43,517 bases of DNA from positions 1 to 43,517 of the IMG/VR virus record IMGVR_UViG_3300036830_000171, one strand, 5' to 3'. The DNA comes from a virus. Shown one piece after another: positions 4,855 to 33,667 of this stretch; position 1 is the first letter of the stretch, and each line of letters begins with the position of its first letter. The notes under the pieces are model-generated. The model did not search any database. It saw nothing but the letters and a program-made list of their open reading frames with translations, and was not told where the DNA came from. The translations under genes were made by a program, and so were the position numbers.

Positions 4855-5373
4855 ATGGCAGAAGTAATTGTGGTCAACGGCCCGGCGTTAATCAGTGTAG
4901 GACTCGGCAGTATGCAGGCCCTCGAATCGCTAGGCTACTCCGAGGACGGCGTAGAAGTCTCATTGACGTTCAACACGGAAGACGTTCGGGTAGACACGTT
5001 CGCTACCACGGCCTTTGACGTGCAACACTTCCTTGAGGAAGCTACCATTACGGCCTCGCTTGTCGTCTATGACACAAGCGTATTAGATGCCGTGAAAGCC
5101 CGTGGTTTCGGCATGACGGCCGGAACCATGCCAGCGGCCGGAACGCTTATGGTGGCGCAAGGCTACACCTACCCTCTTATCGTCCAGGCAACCCCTAACC
5201 CGAACGGTGTTTTCAACGGGGCTTGCATCAAGTTTCCTAACTGCTATTGCACGAATTGGAGCGAGAAGCGGGGCACCAGGGCGACACGGGTAAACGTCAC
5301 TTGGCGGGCATTGCCAGAACAGCAAGTATCGGCCTCGACGGGTTCCGTGTTGTGGGAAGTCTCTTGCGACTAA
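4855..5373 (+). CDS. Probable tail tube (major tail) protein
   Basis: 172 residues, beta-rich, with no transmembrane segment. It follows the connector and immediately precedes the tail assembly chaperones, the standard place for the major tail protein. GVEVSLTFNTEDVRVDTF and a C-terminal RATRVNVTWRALPEQ are consistent with a tail tube fold. Four Cys lie in the second half (CIKFPNCYCTNW and the C-terminal SCD), which is unusual and matches the general Cys richness of the tail proteins here. The assignment is by synteny. Confidence 0.6.
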   Translation: MAEVIVVNGPALISVGLGSMQALESLGYSEDGVEVSLTFNTEDVRVDTFATTAFDVQHFLEEATITASLVVYDTSVLDAVKARGFGMTAGTMPAAGTLMVAQGYTYPLIVQATPNPNGVFNGACIKFPNCYCTNWSEKRGTRATRVNVTWRALPEQQVSASTGSVLWEVSCD

Positions 5374-10897: not shown

Positions 10898-12277
10898 TTA
10901 AACCGGAAATTGGTAGCGATAACTGAATTCAAAAACCATGTCGGCGTTAGTCCATCCGGCTTGATCTTTGGATTTTCCAAAATCCATTTGCACAAATCGA
11001 ATCGGTTCCGTAACGAGCGGGTTCCCGTTGGGGTCCGTGGGGAAATACTGGCTTAGGCTGTTGACCGTGCAGGTTAGGTAGCGAGTAAGGCCGAGGACGG
11101 AATCGGTCAAGGCATCATCGCAATGCGTGGTTTGGTCCAGGGCGAGACGGTTCCAAAGCGTTATCCTCGCCGATCCATCCAACCAAAGGACTTCATTTCC
11201 TGCGCCGTCAACGGTGATTTGCCGGACGTTGTTCGGCCCCGGAGCGATTTGGGCGATATGGTCGCACGGTGGTAGGGCAAGGGCTGGCCCGGCCACAATG
11301 TAGCAACACGGGAAACCGAAAACCCCATCCGATACCAGCTTGTCCCGAATAGCGATGAGGATACTGGACGACGTTGGGAATATCACGACCTCGGCCGAGG
11401 CGTGGACGGTACACACGCAACGAACGTTGGCGGCGCCGATCACGGCCTTAGTGCCGCTGGCGTTGACCGTGGCCACGCACGCCACGGCGGCAATTGCGTG
11501 GTGAATGGCCGAGGCCGAGGCGTTGACCGTTGACACGCAATCGAGCGTGGCCGAGGCCCGGTGAATCACGCTGGCGGTGGGCACGACCGTACACACGCAA
11601 CGAACGTTGGCCGATCCGGTCACAAGCCCGGCAGCGGCATTGACCGTGCAGACACAACGAACGTTGGCCGATCCGCCATAGATGGCCCGGCCTTTGGCGT
11701 TCACGGTGCAGACGCAGCCCACCAGGGCGGCGCCGTTGTGGACTACCCCGCCAGTGGCATTGACCGTGCAAACGCAGTGGAGAGCGGCCGAGGCGTTGTG
11801 AACGGCCTTCCCGGCGGCAAGGACCGTGCAAACGCAATCCGCCGAGGCCGAGGCGTTGTGAGTGGCCTTCCCGGCGGCAAGGACCGTGCAAACGCAATCC
11901 GCCGAGGCCGAGGCACTGTGAACTACCTTCCCGGCGGCAAGGACCGTGCAAACGCAATCCGCCGAGGCCGAGGCACTGTGAACTACCTTCCCGGTGGCAA
12001 GGACCGTGCAAACGCATCCCACAGCGGCCGAGGCGTTCCGAGCTACGTTCCCGTTCGCCTGGACCGTGCAAACGCATCCCAGGACGGCCGAAGCGTTGCG
12101 AGTGGCTTTGGCCGAGGCCGAGGCCGTGCAGACGCAATGCAGCGAGGCCGTTCCCCCGTGAATAACGCTAGCTTTCGCCGTTACCGTGGCACGGCAAGCA
12201 ATTGTTGCCGAGGCCGCTTGCAATTGTCCTAATCCCGACAATGGCCTGTCCGCAAGTGGTCTAAAACCTAAATCCAT
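10898..12277 (-). CDS. Cys-repeat tail protein fused to a paralogous tail domain
   Basis: 459 residues from ATG at 12277, the end of the TAGATA-5 nt-ATG motif (an upstream in-frame start at 12319 overlaps the divergent gene and is not preferred). Residues about 15-295 are 13-14 tandem 20-residue units with a CVCTV core followed by A..GK..HNASA, suggesting a beta-solenoid or stacked strands with paired Cys. Residues about 301-459 are a copy of the protein encoded at 10361-10870. The structure suggests an extended fibre or spike attached through the shared domain. No family known to me matches the repeat. Confidence 0.65.
   Translation of the reverse strand: MDLGFRPLADRPLSGLGQLQAASATIACRATVTAKASVIHGGTASLHCVCTASASAKATRNASAVLGCVCTVQANGNVARNASAAVGCVCTVLATGKVVHSASASADCVCTVLAAGKVVHSASASADCVCTVLAAGKATHNASASADCVCTVLAAGKAVHNASAALHCVCTVNATGGVVHNGAALVGCVCTVNAKGRAIYGGSANVRCVCTVNAAAGLVTGSANVRCVCTVVPTASVIHRASATLDCVSTVNASASAIHHAIAAVACVATVNASGTKAVIGAANVRCVCTVHASAEVVIFPTSSSILIAIRDKLVSDGVFGFPCCYIVAGPALALPPCDHIAQIAPGPNNVRQITVDGAGNEVLWLDGSARITLWNRLALDQTTHCDDALTDSVLGLTRYLTCTVNSLSQYFPTDPNGNPLVTEPIRFVQMDFGKSKDQAGWTNADMVFEFSYRYQFPV
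11401..12180. repeat. 60-bp tandem coding repeat
   Basis: About thirteen 60-bp units encoding the CVCTV repeats. Units at 11821, 11881 and 11941 are nearly identical (only about five changed bases over 60), while outer units diverge. This points to recent expansion in the middle. The antisense strand is also open through the repeat, but as a shadow. Confidence 0.85.
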
Positions 12278-21545: not shown

Positions 21546-21953
21546 GGGCCAGACTCTTGAGCCGCTGGCAAGGCGTTGCGGGTATGCCTCTCTCTTGTTG
21601 GCACCAACTCTATGGGCCAGACTCTTGAGCCGCTGGCAAGGCGTGGCGGGTGAACAAAGTGGCAATGTAGTAAGCGATATGGCTGGGCCAGACTCTTGAG
21701 CCGCTGGCAAGGCGTGGCGGGGATGTACCGCTCAAAAGCGCCATACAACCTGCTATGGGGCCAGACTCTTGAGCCGCTGGCAAGGCGTTGCGGGTGGAAT
21801 AGTTTGAGTAGCGTTTCTTCATACGTTTTGGGCCAGACTCTTGAGCCGCTGGCAAGGCGTTGCGGGGGCCGGTGCCCAGCGTAAGTATGAGCTATTGGGG
21901 CCAGACTCTTGAGCCGGGGCCAGACTCTTTAGCCGCTGGCAAGGCGTTTGACC
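21546..21953 (-). CRISPR. Mini CRISPR array, five spacers
   Basis: Five 37-nt repeats begin at 21546, 21614, 21685, 21758 and 21830. On the plus strand each opens with GGGCCAGACTCTTGAG, then CCGCTGGCAAGGCG, then TTGCGGG or TGGCGGG. Spacers are 31, 34, 36, 35 and 31 nt, all different. A cut-short repeat (21898-21916) and a repeat with an altered end (21917-21953) close the array 3 bp from the effector stop codon. GCCAG and CTGGC pair as a hairpin. On the minus strand this hairpin lies at the repeat 3' end next to the spacer, as in type V crRNAs, and effector transcription would run into the array. The decayed repeat at the effector end would instead suit plus-strand reading, so orientation is open. 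No cas1/cas2. Confidence 0.85.
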
Positions 21954-23803: not shown

Positions 23804-23835
23804 GGTGTTAGCTCCAATTTATTATTTTCCAAAAG

Positions 23836-24025
23836 GGCCAGACTTCGGGCCGCTGGCAGGGCATCGCACTACTACGAACGGGCCTCGGGGAAAAAGGTTC
23901 ACCGCTTTTTCCGGTAGGCCGCATGGGCCAGACTTCGGGCCGCTGGCAGGGCCTAGAACATTAACCTAAAGGTCGGGCCAGACCACCGACTGTACGGGGG
24001 CCAAACTCAAAGCGGCTGGCAACGC
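23836..24025 (+). repeat. Dispersed CRISPR-like hairpin repeats upstream of effector
   Basis: Identical 28-nt copies at 23836-23863 and 23925-23952 (GGGCCAGACTTCGGG then CCGCTGGCAGGGC), a half copy GGGCCAGAC at 23975, and another full form at 23998-24025. All keep the GCCAG/CTGGC or GCCAA/CTGGC stem of the array repeat with a changed loop. The first lies in the effector mRNA leader. Together with the array they bracket the effector gene on both sides. Confidence 0.8.
23869..23902 (-). promoter_or_regulatory. Shared upstream element of the effector gene
   Basis: This stretch (plus strand: TACGAAC, then GGCCTCGG, then AGGTTCAC) recurs at 30673-30710 upstream of a minus-strand 93-aa gene. Here it lies 66 nt upstream of the effector GTG, between two identical hairpin repeats. 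Conservation in two unrelated leaders suggests a common promoter or operator. Confidence 0.5.
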
Positions 24026-24391
24026 TTAGCGATTCCACGGCTTGAAACCGATCTCCTCGGCGAGCGCATCGACCGCCTTGCGGCTTGCCTCGATCTCGTC
24101 TAGCTTTAGCTGCGCATCAATTGCGTCTCTCAAGGCTACTAGCTCCTCACGGGTCAACCCGTTAAACGACGTTTGGACTACCGCTTTGCTGTCGTCCCGA
24201 CTGTCCAGGTTTTGCCGGGCCTCTAGCCGATAGCTCCCCTCGTATTGTCCTTTAGCGACTTCGGAATAGTTGCTCGTGTCGAGCCTCGCAACGCTGAAAG
24301 CAATATCTCCGCAAAACTCCCCTGCACAACCTCGGCGGAAAATATCCAAATGGCGGTTGCCATGCCCATAGCTTGCCGTGATGTAGCGCAT
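24026..24391 (-). CDS. Hypothetical protein in a repeat-flanked cassette
   Basis: 121 residues from ATG 24391. A longer start at 24433 is possible. The N-terminus (RYITASYGHGNRHLDIFRR) and centre (GSYRLEARQNLDSRD) suggest a beta-rich domain, and the C-terminal 50 residues form a helix (LTREELVALRDAIDAQLKLDEIEASRKAVDALAEEIG). No family is recognised. Both ends are bordered by an identical 34-nt direct repeat (23994-24027 and 24440-24473) carrying the CRISPR-like hairpin, and its stop codon lies inside one copy. It may be transcribed with the downstream effector, so it is a candidate partner. Confidence 0.6.
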   Translation of the reverse strand: MRYITASYGHGNRHLDIFRRGCAGEFCGDIAFSVARLDTSNYSEVAKGQYEGSYRLEARQNLDSRDDSKAVVQTSFNGLTREELVALRDAIDAQLKLDEIEASRKAVDALAEEIGFKPWNR

Positions 24392-24439
24392 AGTTTCACT
24401 TTCACTTTTTGAAAAACCGGGGCCTAGACACAATCGGCG

Positions 24440-24473
24440 ACGGGGGCCAAACTCAAAGCGGCTGGCAACGCTT
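24440..24473 (+). repeat. CRISPR-like hairpin repeat, right copy of identical pair
   Basis: Identical to 23994-24027. The core is GGGCCAAACTCAAAG then CGGCTGGCAACGC. It stands immediately upstream of the 24026-24391 gene start on the minus strand, giving a gene held between direct repeats. Confidence 0.8.
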
Positions 24474-25914: not shown

Positions 25915-28149
25915 ATGATAAGCACAAATGGCGAAGTAAATCAAGGGCTATTGGCCCTTCCGTCCGAAACAAAGACCTTTCTAACGGCGCTCTTCGAGCC
26001 AGCCGATATTATCCTCTTCCGTCCTATTGAGACTTGGACGGAAAACGGCCTACGCAAACAAAAGGCCAAAGCATTCCACTACCCCAGCCTTAGCGAAATG
26101 CTGGGGCCGGTACAGTGGGATATATTTCAACATCTGGCCGAGCGGGAACGGGCTAACCAGTTCTTCGGCGTGTGCCCTCGGCCTCATTGGGGAAGTTGGG
26201 AGGGCGGTTGCTGGGACCGATCCGCCCACATAAAGACGGTGCGGGCTTTGTGGTCTGACATTGACGACCGCAAGCCCCAGGACGTGCTAGAAGCGTGCCG
26301 GGATGTGGACCTACCGGCGCCTTCCTTGCTTGTGTCCAGCGGTAACGGCTGCCATGTGTATTGGCTACTCGAAGAACCGTACAGAATCCCGGACGCATTC
26401 CCCTACCCGGTCAAAAAGATGAAGGTAGGCGACAAGTGGCAGGATTACTACGAGAAGGACGGCGAGCGGTTTTTCTCGATTCCTCGGCCCTCGGCCTCGG
26501 CCCTCTACATCGAATCCATCTTGCAGGGCATCGCCAAAGCCATTGGCGGGGATAAGACCACGGACCTAGCCCGGTTGCTTCGCCTTCCCGGCACGATGAA
26601 CAGGAAGGATCAAAGGAACGACAGGACGCCCGTTCCTTGCGTCCTAGTTGACGCCCAGCCCGACCGGCGGTATTCCCTCGATGAGTTTACCACTTTTGGC
26701 ACCAAAGCCCGGCCAGCGGCCTCTAGCGAAATGTCTGGCCCTCGCCCCACTCTTCCTATTAGCACTCCCGATAGCGTCAAAAGGGAATCCAGCCCGGAAG
26801 CCCTCGGCCGCTTGGAAGACCACATTGCAGCTTGTGAGAATGCAGCCGTGGGGGATCGGAGCGGCAAGGACTTCTCGCTAATCCGAGAAGCAATCTTCCT
26901 CGGCGTGAATCCCGATGAACTATGGGAACGGGTCAAGGACGTTGGCAAGTTTGCCGAGCGGACAAGGGAAAACTACTTCGACCCAGCTTGGCAAAAGGCC
27001 GAGGAGAAATACTGGAAGCAATCCCCTTGGCTTGATCGGCGACCGGGCCTTAGCTTCGCTGGCGCTTGGGATGAACATATCAAAATGCTCTTCGGGAAGG
27101 ATGATAAAAAAAAAGCCCCCGCCCCCGGTAGCGCACCAGGGGCGCCCGGCCCGGTGAAAAGCGGCAAAGTCAAGTTGCTGCGATTCTCGGATATGCGGAA
27201 GATTGCGGAAGAGCAGGAAAAATATATCTTCAAGACGATTCTGGAACAGGGCACGCTTACCATCTTTGCAGGTTTACCCTTTGCCGGGAAAACCACAGTT
27301 CTAAATCAGCTAATCGTTTCCATTGGCATGGGTACGGATTTCTTTGGTTATGCGCTGGAAGAGCGCTGCCCCGTGGTCTTTTTGAATGCGGATCAACTCC
27401 GGGAGAAGGTTATTTATAAGCGCATAGCCCGTGCGCTTCCCGATGAGGCGGCAGCGCTGGAGATTGAGGAGATATTCAGGGCACAAGCCTTGGATTGTAT
27501 GCCACAAACTGTTACGGTGGACTTTGTAAAGGAAATCATCCACGAGGCAAAGTCCATCATGGAAACTACCACAACCGGGGTGTTGATTATCGACGCCTTG
27601 CGTAATGCCTTTCTGTGCGAGCAAGAATCCGGTTCGGAAAACGATTCCGTCACCATGTCCAAGATTCTCACGCCGTTTCGCAAGATGGCCCGTGAAACGG
27701 GCTGGGCAATTCTTATCCCTACCCATTCCTCGAAGGGAAGGGACCAATACGCCGGATCGGCCGCTATTGCCGGTTGCTCGGATGCGATTTGGAACCTCAT
27801 TCGAGATGAGGACAGCGATACGGCCACGCTTGGGGTTATCACTCGGGACGGGCTCTTACCGAAAATCATGGTCCGCCAAACCGAGGCCGGGCTTGTCCGG
27901 GTTAATACCGATGCCCTCGGCGACAAAACGAAAGAGAATGAGCTATCCGCTTTTATTGCGAAATTCCCCGATACGGCCCCGCTGGCGGTAACGGCTGAGG
28001 ATGTGGTAAAGGCAGGTTGGGCGGGTAAGGCCAAGGACCGAACGGTTAGGAATTTAATAGAGGAAGCAAATCGGGGCGGAATGTCTCCCCGATTGGAGCG
28101 GATTGGAGGGGGTATAAAGGGTGATCCTTTTCGGTACTATAGGGCCTAA
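25915..28149 (+). CDS. Primase-helicase replication protein
   Basis: 744 residues. Residues about 95-250 look like an archaeo-eukaryotic-type primase: ALWSDIDD (Asp115, Asp117), SSGNGCHVYWLLEEP and LARLLRLPGTMNRKD. Residues about 420-660 are a RepA/DnaB-like RecA fold: GLPFAGKTTV (Walker A, Lys459), GVLIIDALRN (Walker B, Asp560) and ILIPTHSSKGRDQYAGSAAIAG. The C-terminus resembles a winged helix. The protein would start replication by priming and unwinding at the phage origin. A nine-A run at 27106-27114 lies in the linker between the two enzymes and may give a shortened form. Leaderless-type start. Confidence 0.8.
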   Translation: MISTNGEVNQGLLALPSETKTFLTALFEPADIILFRPIETWTENGLRKQKAKAFHYPSLSEMLGPVQWDIFQHLAERERANQFFGVCPRPHWGSWEGGCWDRSAHIKTVRALWSDIDDRKPQDVLEACRDVDLPAPSLLVSSGNGCHVYWLLEEPYRIPDAFPYPVKKMKVGDKWQDYYEKDGERFFSIPRPSASALYIESILQGIAKAIGGDKTTDLARLLRLPGTMNRKDQRNDRTPVPCVLVDAQPDRRYSLDEFTTFGTKARPAASSEMSGPRPTLPISTPDSVKRESSPEALGRLEDHIAACENAAVGDRSGKDFSLIREAIFLGVNPDELWERVKDVGKFAERTRENYFDPAWQKAEEKYWKQSPWLDRRPGLSFAGAWDEHIKMLFGKDDKKKAPAPGSAPGAPGPVKSGKVKLLRFSDMRKIAEEQEKYIFKTILEQGTLTIFAGLPFAGKTTVLNQLIVSIGMGTDFFGYALEERCPVVFLNADQLREKVIYKRIARALPDEAAALEIEEIFRAQALDCMPQTVTVDFVKEIIHEAKSIMETTTTGVLIIDALRNAFLCEQESGSENDSVTMSKILTPFRKMARETGWAILIPTHSSKGRDQYAGSAAIAGCSDAIWNLIRDEDSDTATLGVITRDGLLPKIMVRQTEAGLVRVNTDALGDKTKENELSAFIAKFPDTAPLAVTAEDVVKAGWAGKAKDRTVRNLIEEANRGGMSPRLERIGGGIKGDPFRYYRA
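27106..27144 (+). promoter_or_regulatory. Candidate frameshift/slippage site between primase and helicase
   Basis: Nine A in codon phase AAA AAA AAA, then 5 nt, then a 6-bp hairpin CGCCCC (27120-27125) with GGGGCG (27139-27144). A -1 shift adds about 14 residues and stops at 27157, giving a primase-only protein of roughly 410 residues. The design resembles dnaX. Confidence 0.45.
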
Positions 28150-28300: not shown

Positions 28301-28334
28301 CTTGTGGTCTTTGACTGCCTTGGCCCAAAGCTTT

Positions 28335-28382
28335 GCCAGCAGCTTGTAGGTCTGGCCTTGTCCGTTAGCCTAGGTCTGGCCC
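28335..28382 (-). repeat. CRISPR-like hairpin repeat, minus orientation
   Basis: GCCAGCAGCTTGTAGGTCTG then GCC (28335-28357) keeps the GCCAG/CTGGC stem. A half copy GTCTGGCCC follows at 28374-28382. Orientation is opposite to the copies at 21.5-24.5 kb. Confidence 0.65.
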
Positions 28383-30049: not shown

Positions 30050-30089
30050 GGGGCCGTAGCTCAATTGGGAGAGCGCAGCGTTCGCAATG
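30050..30089 (+). other. attP: attP core: 5' half of a tRNA-Ala(CGC)
   Basis: GGGGCCG, TA, GCTC, AATTGGGA, GAGC, G, CAGCG, TTCGCAA fit tRNA positions 1-38 exactly: acceptor strand, D arm, anticodon loop with CGC at 30083-30085. Pairing fails after the loop, so this is not a whole tRNA. It is best read as the identity block with a host tRNA-Ala gene. Integration would give one rebuilt tRNA and one 5' stub. Confidence 0.7.
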
Positions 30090-30103
30090 GCGAACGCTTT
30101 TTT
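30077..30103 (+). terminator. Terminator fused to the tRNA-like core
   Basis: AGCGTTCGC (30077-30085), AATG loop, GCGAACGCT (30090-30098), then a T run. The left arm is tRNA anticodon stem-loop sequence. After integration it would stop the truncated tRNA transcript. Confidence 0.75.
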
Positions 30104-30268: not shown

Positions 30269-30340
30269 GGGCCAGACTTGAGCGGCTGGCAACGCTTCGA
30301 GCGTCTTGTCACCGGGCCAGACTCAAGCGGCTGGCAACGC
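30269..30340 (+). repeat. Two CRISPR-like hairpin repeats
   Basis: GGGCCAGACTTGAG then CGGCTGGCAACGC (30269-30295) and GGGCCAGACTCAAG then CGGCTGGCAACGC (30314-30340), an 18-nt gap. They lie just past the 3' end of the 93-residue minus-strand gene. Confidence 0.8.
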
Positions 30341-30354
30341 CTCGGGCCTTCGAG

Positions 30355-30636
30355 CTACTTGCCCTTGGCGTACCGTTGGAAGGTTGCGGACAGGGAGCGG
30401 AAATCGTCCGGGGTTGTCTTCAGGTCGTCGTCGTACTCCATTGCAACGTCGAAAATGATTTCGGAGAGCGACCGGAGGTGATCCGGGTTGTCCGGTTCGG
30501 CCTTCACCTTGTCCAGCGCTTCCCGGCACGCTGGGATAGCTTCCAACGTGAAAGTTTCCTCCACGGCGTCAAGGTAACGCTCGGCGGCGACCAAGGACTC
30601 TTGCAAGTGAACCGGGGACAACTTGCGACGGGCCAT
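30355..30636 (-). CDS. Hypothetical helical protein flanked by repeats
   Basis: 93 residues from ATG 30636, with GAAAGGAAG as ribosome site. A longer frame to 30741 lacks one. Helical throughout, acidic (LQESLVAAERYLDAVEETF; LRSLSEIIFDVAMEYDDD). Not recognised. It has plus-oriented hairpin repeats at its 3' side, minus-oriented ones upstream, and the same leader element as the Cas12-like gene. These links make it a candidate member of that system, for example a regulator or small inhibitor. Confidence 0.65.
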   Translation of the reverse strand: MARRKLSPVHLQESLVAAERYLDAVEETFTLEAIPACREALDKVKAEPDNPDHLRSLSEIIFDVAMEYDDDLKTTPDDFRSLSATFQRYAKGK

Positions 30637-30672
30637 GACAACTTCCTTTCGAGTAGGTTTTCGATTTCGTCC

Positions 30673-30710
30673 ACTACCACTACGAACGGGCCTCGGCGGC
30701 GCAGGTTCAC
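30673..30710 (-). promoter_or_regulatory. Second copy of the element shared with the effector gene
   Basis: Contains TACGAAC, GGGCCTCGG and AGGTTCAC in the same order as 23869-23902, ending 37 nt upstream of ATG 30636 on the minus strand. Confidence 0.5.
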
Positions 30711-30755
30711 GGATTCTCGAAAGTTTTTCGGACGGCCTCACTCGCTTACCTTCGA

Positions 30756-30933
30756 GCCTTGCCAGCGGTTCGCCTCGGCGTGAGTCTGGCCCTCGGGTTG
30801 CCCGTTACATCGCCTTGCCAGCGGCTTCGAGTCTGGCCCTTTTTGAACGAGGAAACCACGCCTTGCCAGCGGCTTCGAGTCTGGCCCAGAATGAGCCAAT
30901 CCATCGCCTTGCCAGCGGCTTCGAGTCTGGCCC
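30756..30933 (-). CRISPR. Second repeat array, inverted, short spacers
   Basis: Repeats at 30756-30792 (with an insert in the loop), 30811-30839, 30859-30887 and 30905-30933. The last three are identical 29-nt units, plus strand CGCCTTGCCAGCGGCTTCG then AGTCTGGCCC. Gaps are 18, 19 and 17 nt, all different. Relative to array one the units are in inverse orientation and lack the 8-nt GTTGCGGG end. It could be a CRISPR array with short spacers or a cluster of hairpin elements. No gene is encoded here. Confidence 0.6.
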
Positions 30934-31493
30934 TTGGTCGCCCTATGATTGTTGCGAAACGTCATCCACGCCCACCCCATCGCAGCCCCTCGGCCTCGCC
31001 CTCGGCCCCCTCGCCCCGCTCGAAGCCCGGCCCTCGACGCTAAGCCCTCTCCCAGCCCCGCCATCGCCACGCCGAGGCCATTGCCAGCCCGTCCTAGTCT
31101 GACCCCCTCGAAGCCCCGCCCTCGGCCCCCTAGCCCTAATCCGAGGCCGAGGGGTAGTGAACAGCGTGGGGCGGTTTACCACTTTGGTTTACCACTAGGG
31201 GGCCTTCGAGCGGCTTTGGGCTGTTTTATGCTGTTTGGTGAGAAATGCGGCAGCATAACCTATGCTGCGTTTACGGGGCAACCCCCGGCCCCTCGGCAAC
31301 CGAACCCGATCTAAGCCTAAGCCCACCACAAGCGGGGCCGAGGCCGAGGCAGTGTACGGGAAAACACAGGGTAAGGGGTCGATGGGAAGCCCGATGGTCC
31401 TTGGACATATTAAACCACTTTTGGAATTTATTTTTGCGAAACTACACGAAACCGTGTCCTAGCGGTTTTCTATCCGTCCTACTCTTCTAGGAC
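30934..31493. other. Non-coding GC-rich stretch
   Basis: 30960-31160 is low-complexity, rich in CCTCGGCC/CCCTCG words, with many spurious Pro-rich frames. It also holds two inverted GTTTACCAC arm-like sites (31173 and 31186) and an AT-rich patch near 31410-31445. I find no gene with a ribosome site or family pattern. Confidence 0.6.
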
Positions 31494-32094: not shown

Positions 32095-32313
32095 ATGGTT
32101 GTTTACCTGTTCTACACTCGGCACAGTAGCGGGGAAGTGGTTTTGCTGTCGGTTTACAAAAAGAGCCACTATCAAGACCTTTACAACCGTGTGGCCGAGA
32201 TTGCGGAGCGGCATGGGCGGCAAGTTATGGCGGGGTCCGGCCGGGTTGCTATCCAGACGGGGGACAACGAAACGGGGCAGGTTTGGTATGCGGAGCGGTG
32301 GGATTGCGAGTAG
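32095..32313 (+). CDS. Small hypothetical protein
   Basis: 72 residues, ribosome site AAAGGGG. Beta-alpha pattern (VVYLFYTRHSSGEVVLLSVYKKSHYQDLYNRVAEIAERHG). Not recognised. Its stop codon overlaps the first base of a hairpin repeat. Confidence 0.6.
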   Translation: MVVYLFYTRHSSGEVVLLSVYKKSHYQDLYNRVAEIAERHGRQVMAGSGRVAIQTGDNETGQVWYAERWDCE

Positions 32314-32340
32314 GCCAAACTCTATAGCCGCTGGCAAGGC
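32313..32340 (+). repeat. CRISPR-like hairpin repeat, single copy
   Basis: GGCCAAACTCTATAG then CCGCTGGCAAGGC, with the same GCCAA/GCTGGC stem and a changed loop. It lies between two small plus-strand genes. Confidence 0.75.
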
Positions 32341-33341: not shown

Positions 33342-33667
33342 GGGCCAGACTCGCCATATACCGGACGGGGCCAAGCTTAGCAACCGCTGGCAAGGTTTTG
33401 AGTACAGCTAACAGGGGGCCAGGCTTTTTATTGTTGTCCTATCGGCCAGACTAAGCTTGTTTCCCAAGGGCCAGACTCTTCACGGATAGGGCCAGACCAC
33501 ATCTATTAGCAGGGCCAGACCACCAGGGCGATAGGCCAGACGAAACATTTTCGCAAAGGGCCAGACCGGGCTAGACATTTGCGGGCCAGACTCACCATTA
33601 GGCCAGACTAGACTAGAACAAATGTTAAGTTTTTGGGCCAACTTCAAAAGATAGCCGCTGGCAAGGC
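33342..33667 (+). repeat. Cluster of degenerate CRISPR-like half repeats
   Basis: Twelve copies of GGCCAGAC or near forms start at about 33342, 33368, 33416, 33444, 33468, 33489, 33512, 33534, 33558, 33583, 33601 and 33635, mostly 17-27 nt apart. Only 33368 and 33635 keep the closing CCGCTGGCAAGG arm. The rest carry just the first arm plus 12-18 variable bases. No gene is present. It looks like an array decayed to its stem-side end, or a set of short guide-like units. Confidence 0.7.

Follow-up and report, generated by a model that had tools for sequence, protein, structure and literature searches.

Compact, extension-less CRISPR repeat units in the genome of a phage that encodes Cas12m

The window, that is, the whole 43,517-nt stretch of DNA that was analysed, is a complete 43.5-kb phage record (IMGVR_UViG_3300036830_000171) with a 127-bp terminal repeat, and terminase, portal, head, primase/helicase, and integrase genes were all present. 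Its minus strand encodes a 615-aa effector (Table 1) that belongs to the Cas12m/V-U1 family by both sequence and predicted fold. The protein was assigned to Cas12u1 by PADLOC over residues 9-613 (E=4e-68), its sequence matched Cas12m in the PDB (E=7e-33), and the top four PDB matches of an AlphaFold model of moderate quality (pLDDT 72) were all Cas12m, with E values down to 8.5e-25. Our alignment revealed that the RuvC-I aspartate is replaced by asparagine (GINLGYR) with the following E and D kept, giving N-E-D; Cas12m orthologs of the D-E-D, H-D-D, and N-D-D types bind dsDNA and do not cut it (PMC11013384). V-M systems have been described on plasmids and prophages (PMC11656645), and Cas12m-like proteins have been reported in landfill phages (PMC12607003).

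Directly downstream of cas12m lies the main CRISPR array, whose crRNA sense is the minus strand and whose repeats read CCCGCAAC-GCCTTGCCAGCGGCTCAAGAGTCTGGCCC, with the CCCGCCAC variant in two of them. The same gene-then-array order is found in phage Rctr197k, in which the array lies downstream of a Cas12m relative, on its strand, and the hairpin sits at the 3' end of the repeat. Read in the Rctr197k direction, the repeat of the window is CCCGCAAC-GCC-TT-GCCAG-C-GGC-TCAAGAGT-CTGGC-CC.

Table 1. Repeat units, guides, and associated features of the window
Feature	Position	Strand	Evidence
Main CRISPR array, 5 x 37-nt repeats + one degenerate + one partial, spacers 30-36 nt	21546..21953	-	
cas12m (type V-M / V-U1 effector), 615 aa	21956..23803	-	PADLOC, PDB, AlphaFold model
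Solitary unit, 5' leader of cas12m	23835..23862	-	
Solitary unit upstream of cas12m	23925..23952	-	
Unit downstream of gene 24026-24433, then half-motif 23976-23984; S1 GCG/CGC	23998..24025	-	
Unit upstream of gene 24026-24433	24444..24471	-	
Solitary unit, compensatory S1 GCU/AGC, then half-motif 28373-28381	28330..28358	+	
Compact unit, second of tandem pair, S1 GCG/CGC	30269..30295	-	
Compact unit, first of tandem pair, 18-nt gap 30296-30313, S1 GCG/CGC	30314..30340	-	
Compact unit a1, loop 9 nt longer, internal hairpin	30756..30792	+	
Guide 1 (19 nt), no exact IMG/VR match	30793..30811	+	
Compact unit a2 (28 nt)	30812..30839	+	
Guide 2 (20 nt), 20/20 to major capsid gene in IMGVR_UViG_3300024239_000169	30840..30859	+	
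Compact unit a3 (28 nt)	30860..30887	+	
Guide 3 (18 nt), no exact IMG/VR match	30888..30905	+	
Compact unit a4 (28 nt)	30906..30933	+	
Guide 4 (first 20 nt past last unit), no exact IMG/VR match	30934..30953	+	
Solitary unit, TATAAT exactly 7 nt upstream	32312..32340	-	
About 10 half-motifs [ACG]G[TC]CTGGCC (3' part of repeat only), gaps 8-18 nt	33343..33609	-	
Unit, compensatory S1 ACC/GGU	33368..33396	-	
Solitary unit, TAGAAT exactly 7 nt upstream; head of half-motif array	33635..33667	-	

Direct reading of the plus strand at 30756-30933 revealed three identical 28-nt copies of GCCTTGCCAGCGGCTTCGAGTCTGGCCC (a2 to a4), each preceded by a C, and a fourth copy (a1) whose longer loop holds a CGCC/GGCG hairpin of its own. 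The gaps between the units measure 19, 20, and 18 nt, their sequences do not resemble one another, and the crRNA sense of the cluster is the plus strand, opposite to that of the main array. The initial annotation had called an inverted second array of 29-nt repeats with 17-19-nt gaps, which was borne out, the longer unit arising because the preceding C had been included in it (the gaps then being 18, 19, and 17 nt). Each compact unit equals the main repeat minus 8 nt. These had been described as the last 8 nt of the repeat, which is correct for the plus strand; in the crRNA sense, however, they come first, and the reading direction taken from Rctr197k therefore makes them a 5' extension and not the end that touches the guide. 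The repeats are real and far above chance.

That such units are intrinsic terminators, or repeats within a coding sequence, is extremely improbable. T-runs do follow two of them (CCCTTTTTG and CCCTTTTGG), but the terminator reading was rejected for the cluster, with none called in 30600-31100, and the coding reading was rejected because the unit spacings of 56, 48, and 46 nt, not all multiples of three, break the frame and the overlapping ORFs had no Pfam match. A hairpin cluster in a leader, the other possibility raised from the sequence originally, fits less well, as the next downstream gene starts at about 31494 and no terminator was found after a4. No Rfam match was found, and there was no clear -10 box directly upstream of a1.

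In the crRNA sense, the 28-nt unit comprises a 3-bp stem (S1; GCC/GGC) and a 5-bp pseudoknot (GCCAG/CUGGC), followed by two nucleotides and then the guide; the first nucleotide of the compact unit is exactly the first of the stem. A descriptor of this arrangement (3-bp stem, 2 nt, 5-nt pseudoknot strand, 1 nt, stem, loop, pseudoknot strand, 2 nt) fitted the array repeats of Rctr197k, degenerate ones excepted, of Methylomonas and Pelobacter, and of viral contigs G001, G003, G005, and most of G008; in the G010 array the pseudoknot is kept and the stem is weaker. These pseudoknot-bearing arrays adjoin Cas12m genes, and their 3+5-bp spacing is equal to that of the window; in all, six further Cas12m arrays were found to have this pseudoknot. 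The scaffold of the window ends in CC where AC is usual, and it is therefore a diverged one. On an Allomeiothermus silvanus plasmid (L009 5217-5770), Cas12m array repeats differ from copy to copy, with pseudoknot changes that by eye appear compensatory.

In the published structure of Cas12m2, the scaffold forms a stem and a pseudoknot, 29 nt of it are ordered, nucleotides -36 to -30 are disordered, and the guide pairs over 17 bp (PMC10442227); the GoCas12m crRNA is about 50 nt long, of which about 30 nt are repeat (PMC11013384). The compact gaps thus reach or exceed the 17-nt length of the Cas12m guide duplex, and because published Cas12m uses some 29-30 ordered scaffold nt plus that duplex, one unit with its gap (46-48 nt) corresponds to roughly one mature crRNA. 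The proposal of a processed-length guide array in the initial annotation gains from this agreement, with units that start at the first paired nucleotide of the pseudoknotted fold and gaps of 18-20 nt. The effector, however, is Cas12m, a DNA-binding protein whose tested orthologs showed no dsDNA cleavage.

The cluster is part of a wider family that had gone unremarked. Across the window, 21 elements matched the 14-nt 5' core with at most 2 mismatches and can form both helices, compared with 0.03 expected from dinucleotide shuffles; 6 of these lie in the main array and 14 elsewhere, the cluster included, and one further candidate lies in the primase/helicase gene. All but one of the 14 are intergenic, the exception (32312-32340) overlapping a stop codon. 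The gene at 24026-24433 encodes a 135-aa product that matches no family; on either side of this gene lies a 34-nt copy of the unit (23994-24027 and 24440-24473), the two being identical and equally oriented. The primase/helicase candidate (26707-26741) is on the sense strand of the coding sequence, with 2 mismatches and a 14-nt loop.

Both helices are complete in every compact unit and compensatory changes are present. Over the units of the window, 96 of 96 cells pair, 5 of them with a double change, and none of 500 shuffles reached the covariation score, which vanished when the pairing partner was slid; stem S1 occurs as GCC/GGC, GCG/CGC, GCU/AGC, and ACC/GGU. These patterns bear on the view that the units are remnants of a decayed CRISPR array that moved through the genome, lost the 8-nt extension and the spacer ends, and yield no product, which we consider quite improbable. 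Altered loops in some units would fit such decay, as would the half-motifs discussed below, which resemble a further stage of it, and the shortened intervals in the distal array parts of G010 and G008. It is opposed, however, by the retention of both helices in all units with compensatory changes, by the identity of three cluster copies, by a deletion end that always coincides with the first paired nucleotide, by the uniform gap length, and by -10 boxes at a fixed distance before two solitary units, for which the background values are 0.0002 (TATAAT+7 nt before 32312-32340) and 0.016 (TAGAAT+7 nt before 33635-33667).

For the guides, an exact search of IMG/VR matched one of the four, guide 2, over its entire gap. 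The matching site encodes GGFLVQK within a 467-aa protein, relatives of which carry the annotation of major capsid protein, and the 5' flank of the site is GAAGTC; T- and C-rich types are among the known Cas12m PAMs (PMC11013384). The match would be weak if taken alone, because about 0.1 exact matches per 20-mer are expected by chance (from the estimated size of IMG/VR) and one of four guides matched; a random 20-mer encodes GFLV with a probability of 0.0004, for a motif picked after the fact. The capsid-gene match is thus suggestive and supportive, but no proof of targeting. BLAST of the spacers gave one weak match among phage records (E=5) and none among plasmid records, leaving no phage or plasmid target at the BLAST limit, and no guide matched the phage itself apart from the truncated repeat m6.

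No close relative of the phage was found in the collections, and a single-protein search of viral and genome contigs was empty. A two-sequence profile of the C-terminal half recovered 11 viral loci, a nine-sequence alignment being too divergent as a query. Among the Cas12m phages, G003 (L019; IMGVR_UViG_3300022723_000184) is 202 kb long and carries solitary repeat units; a -10 box precedes its main array and the solitary units at 5249, 7647, 53610, 124166, and 136054 by 7 nt, and the unit at 46800 by 5 nt; several of its solitary guides continue into flanking sequence. The G010 phage has four separate clusters. Because the 7-nt spacing of the -10 box at two units of the window matches that of the G003 solitary units, array-free crRNA mini-genes appear to recur, and the G003 solitary units together with the four G010 clusters indicate that scattered guide units recur in Cas12m phages. 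The scattered units of other Cas12m phages retain the 8-nt extension, and among the other phages and plasmids examined there was no tandem compact array lacking it; this arrangement was seen only in the window. The G010 main-array spacer at 54125 matches its own genome at 15319 in 34 of 35 positions, with the first base changed, which agrees with spacers directed at related phages. In genome contigs, the hairpin pattern gave two matches, both in coding sequence (Lentibacter and Yoonia) and attributable to chance, and there is therefore no sign of the hairpin as an abundant host repeat.

Based on these data, we think that the cluster is probably an array of compact crRNA units of processed length that serves the DNA-binding Cas12m of this phage, and that it belongs to a distributed guide set. 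That the array is transcribed and processed, and that its guides lead to binding and silencing, is inferred. The array would be transcribed from the plus strand, and Cas12m would bind the RNA and cut it at the unit boundaries into 46-48-nt crRNAs; a guide would then direct Cas12m to matching sites in rival phages or plasmids, where the bound protein would block transcription or replication without cutting. The other units, solitary or paired, may supply further guides, some from promoters of their own that would start at the first nucleotide of the unit.

An unlikely alternative is that compact and solitary units act as RNA decoys or regulators, through autoregulation of Cas12m via its own leader or by occupying host Cas12m as an anti-CRISPR RNA, with the gaps as mere spacers. 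Two units do lie in the cas12m leader (23835 and 23925), several solitary guides continue into flanking phage sequence, and other phages use solitary repeat units that follow a promoter as anti-CRISPR RNAs (PMC10651486), but those published units were described without cas gene association (PMC10651486), whereas this phage itself encodes the cognate effector. Moreover, a decoy would not need the fixed gap of 18-20 nt, the guide length at which the tandem gaps are kept, and one gap is an exact capsid-gene match.

A guide function for Cas12m, our preferred explanation, suggests that this protein can do without the 8-nt extension of the repeat and that phages spread guide genes across the genome and do not rely on an array alone. 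It may have implications for transcription silencing, for which a unit and its guide would be a natural minimal cassette of about 47 nt, and it would offer a route by which new guides emerge in the absence of adaptation genes and explain why such loci would escape array finders that expect regular CRISPR spacing. In the open-licence literature, we found neither Cas12m arrays that lack the extension nor solitary guide genes for Cas12m on a phage that encodes the effector.

The closest known system is type V-M (Cas12m, formerly V-U1/C2c4, including MmCas12m2 and GoCas12m), which the window resembles in effector fold and sequence, in an array that adjoins the gene downstream with repeats of about 36 nt (37 nt here), in a pseudoknot crRNA of about 50 nt, and in having no adaptation genes seen; it differs in the second array, whose 28-nt units lack the extension and alternate with guides of 18-20 nt, the scattered units, the half-motifs, and the scaffold ending in CC and not AC. 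The solitary repeat units of phages, or RNA anti-CRISPRs (Racrs), are likewise single units in phage genomes, often just 3' of a promoter (PMC10651486), but they are solitary repeats in phages from which cognate cas genes are absent, whereas here cas12m is on the phage and tandem units with guide-length gaps occur. The mini-arrays of inter-virus competition (PMC11656645) are also short, virus-borne, and directed against other viruses, but they depend on host CRISPR and have full repeats in place of trimmed repeats and a viral effector. TIGR arrays (TIGR-Tas) share short guide units in phage arrays but use another protein family and a dual-spacer unit, and no Tas protein was found in the window.

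The half-motifs always lie downstream, in the crRNA sense, of a full unit, and about 1.6 copies are expected in the whole window; strings of them were looked for in the relatives and none were found. At 33343-33609, GGCCAGACT half-motifs follow one another in tandem at a spacing of 17-27 nt, as iterons do, and together with the two identical copies flanking gene 24026-24433 they could point to a family of DNA-level hairpins or binding sites (iterons, recombination sites, or operators) that shares the repeat sequence. We regard this as very improbable, since the covarying pairs form the pseudoknot typical of a Cas12m crRNA and not a simple palindrome, and orientation and promoter spacing agree with the crRNA sense. 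A bolder and doubtful extension of the guide reading is that Cas12m phages have a distributed, array-free guide system of mini-genes, in each of which a promoter is followed by a single minimal crRNA scaffold and a mature-length guide, and that here the 5' scaffold half at 33635-33667 may also serve the roughly 10 3' half-repeats with their own short guides, which would make it a split crRNA partway towards a tracrRNA system. The half-motif string would be a candidate, open to testing, for a stage that links crRNA-only guides with split ones.

Other repeats and sites were also noted in the window. A 40-nt sequence, 80% identical between copies, occurs at 23868-23907 and 30676-30715, upstream of the minus-strand genes cas12m and 30355-30636; at cas12m, a 28-nt unit lies between this sequence and the gene, as if inserted. 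ARAGORN found no whole tRNA gene in the window; near the integrase, 30050-30100 by eye resembles the 5' half of a tRNA-Ala gene and is probably attP. Tandem repeats of 60 bp occupy 11643-12222 within a predicted 473-aa gene on the minus strand.
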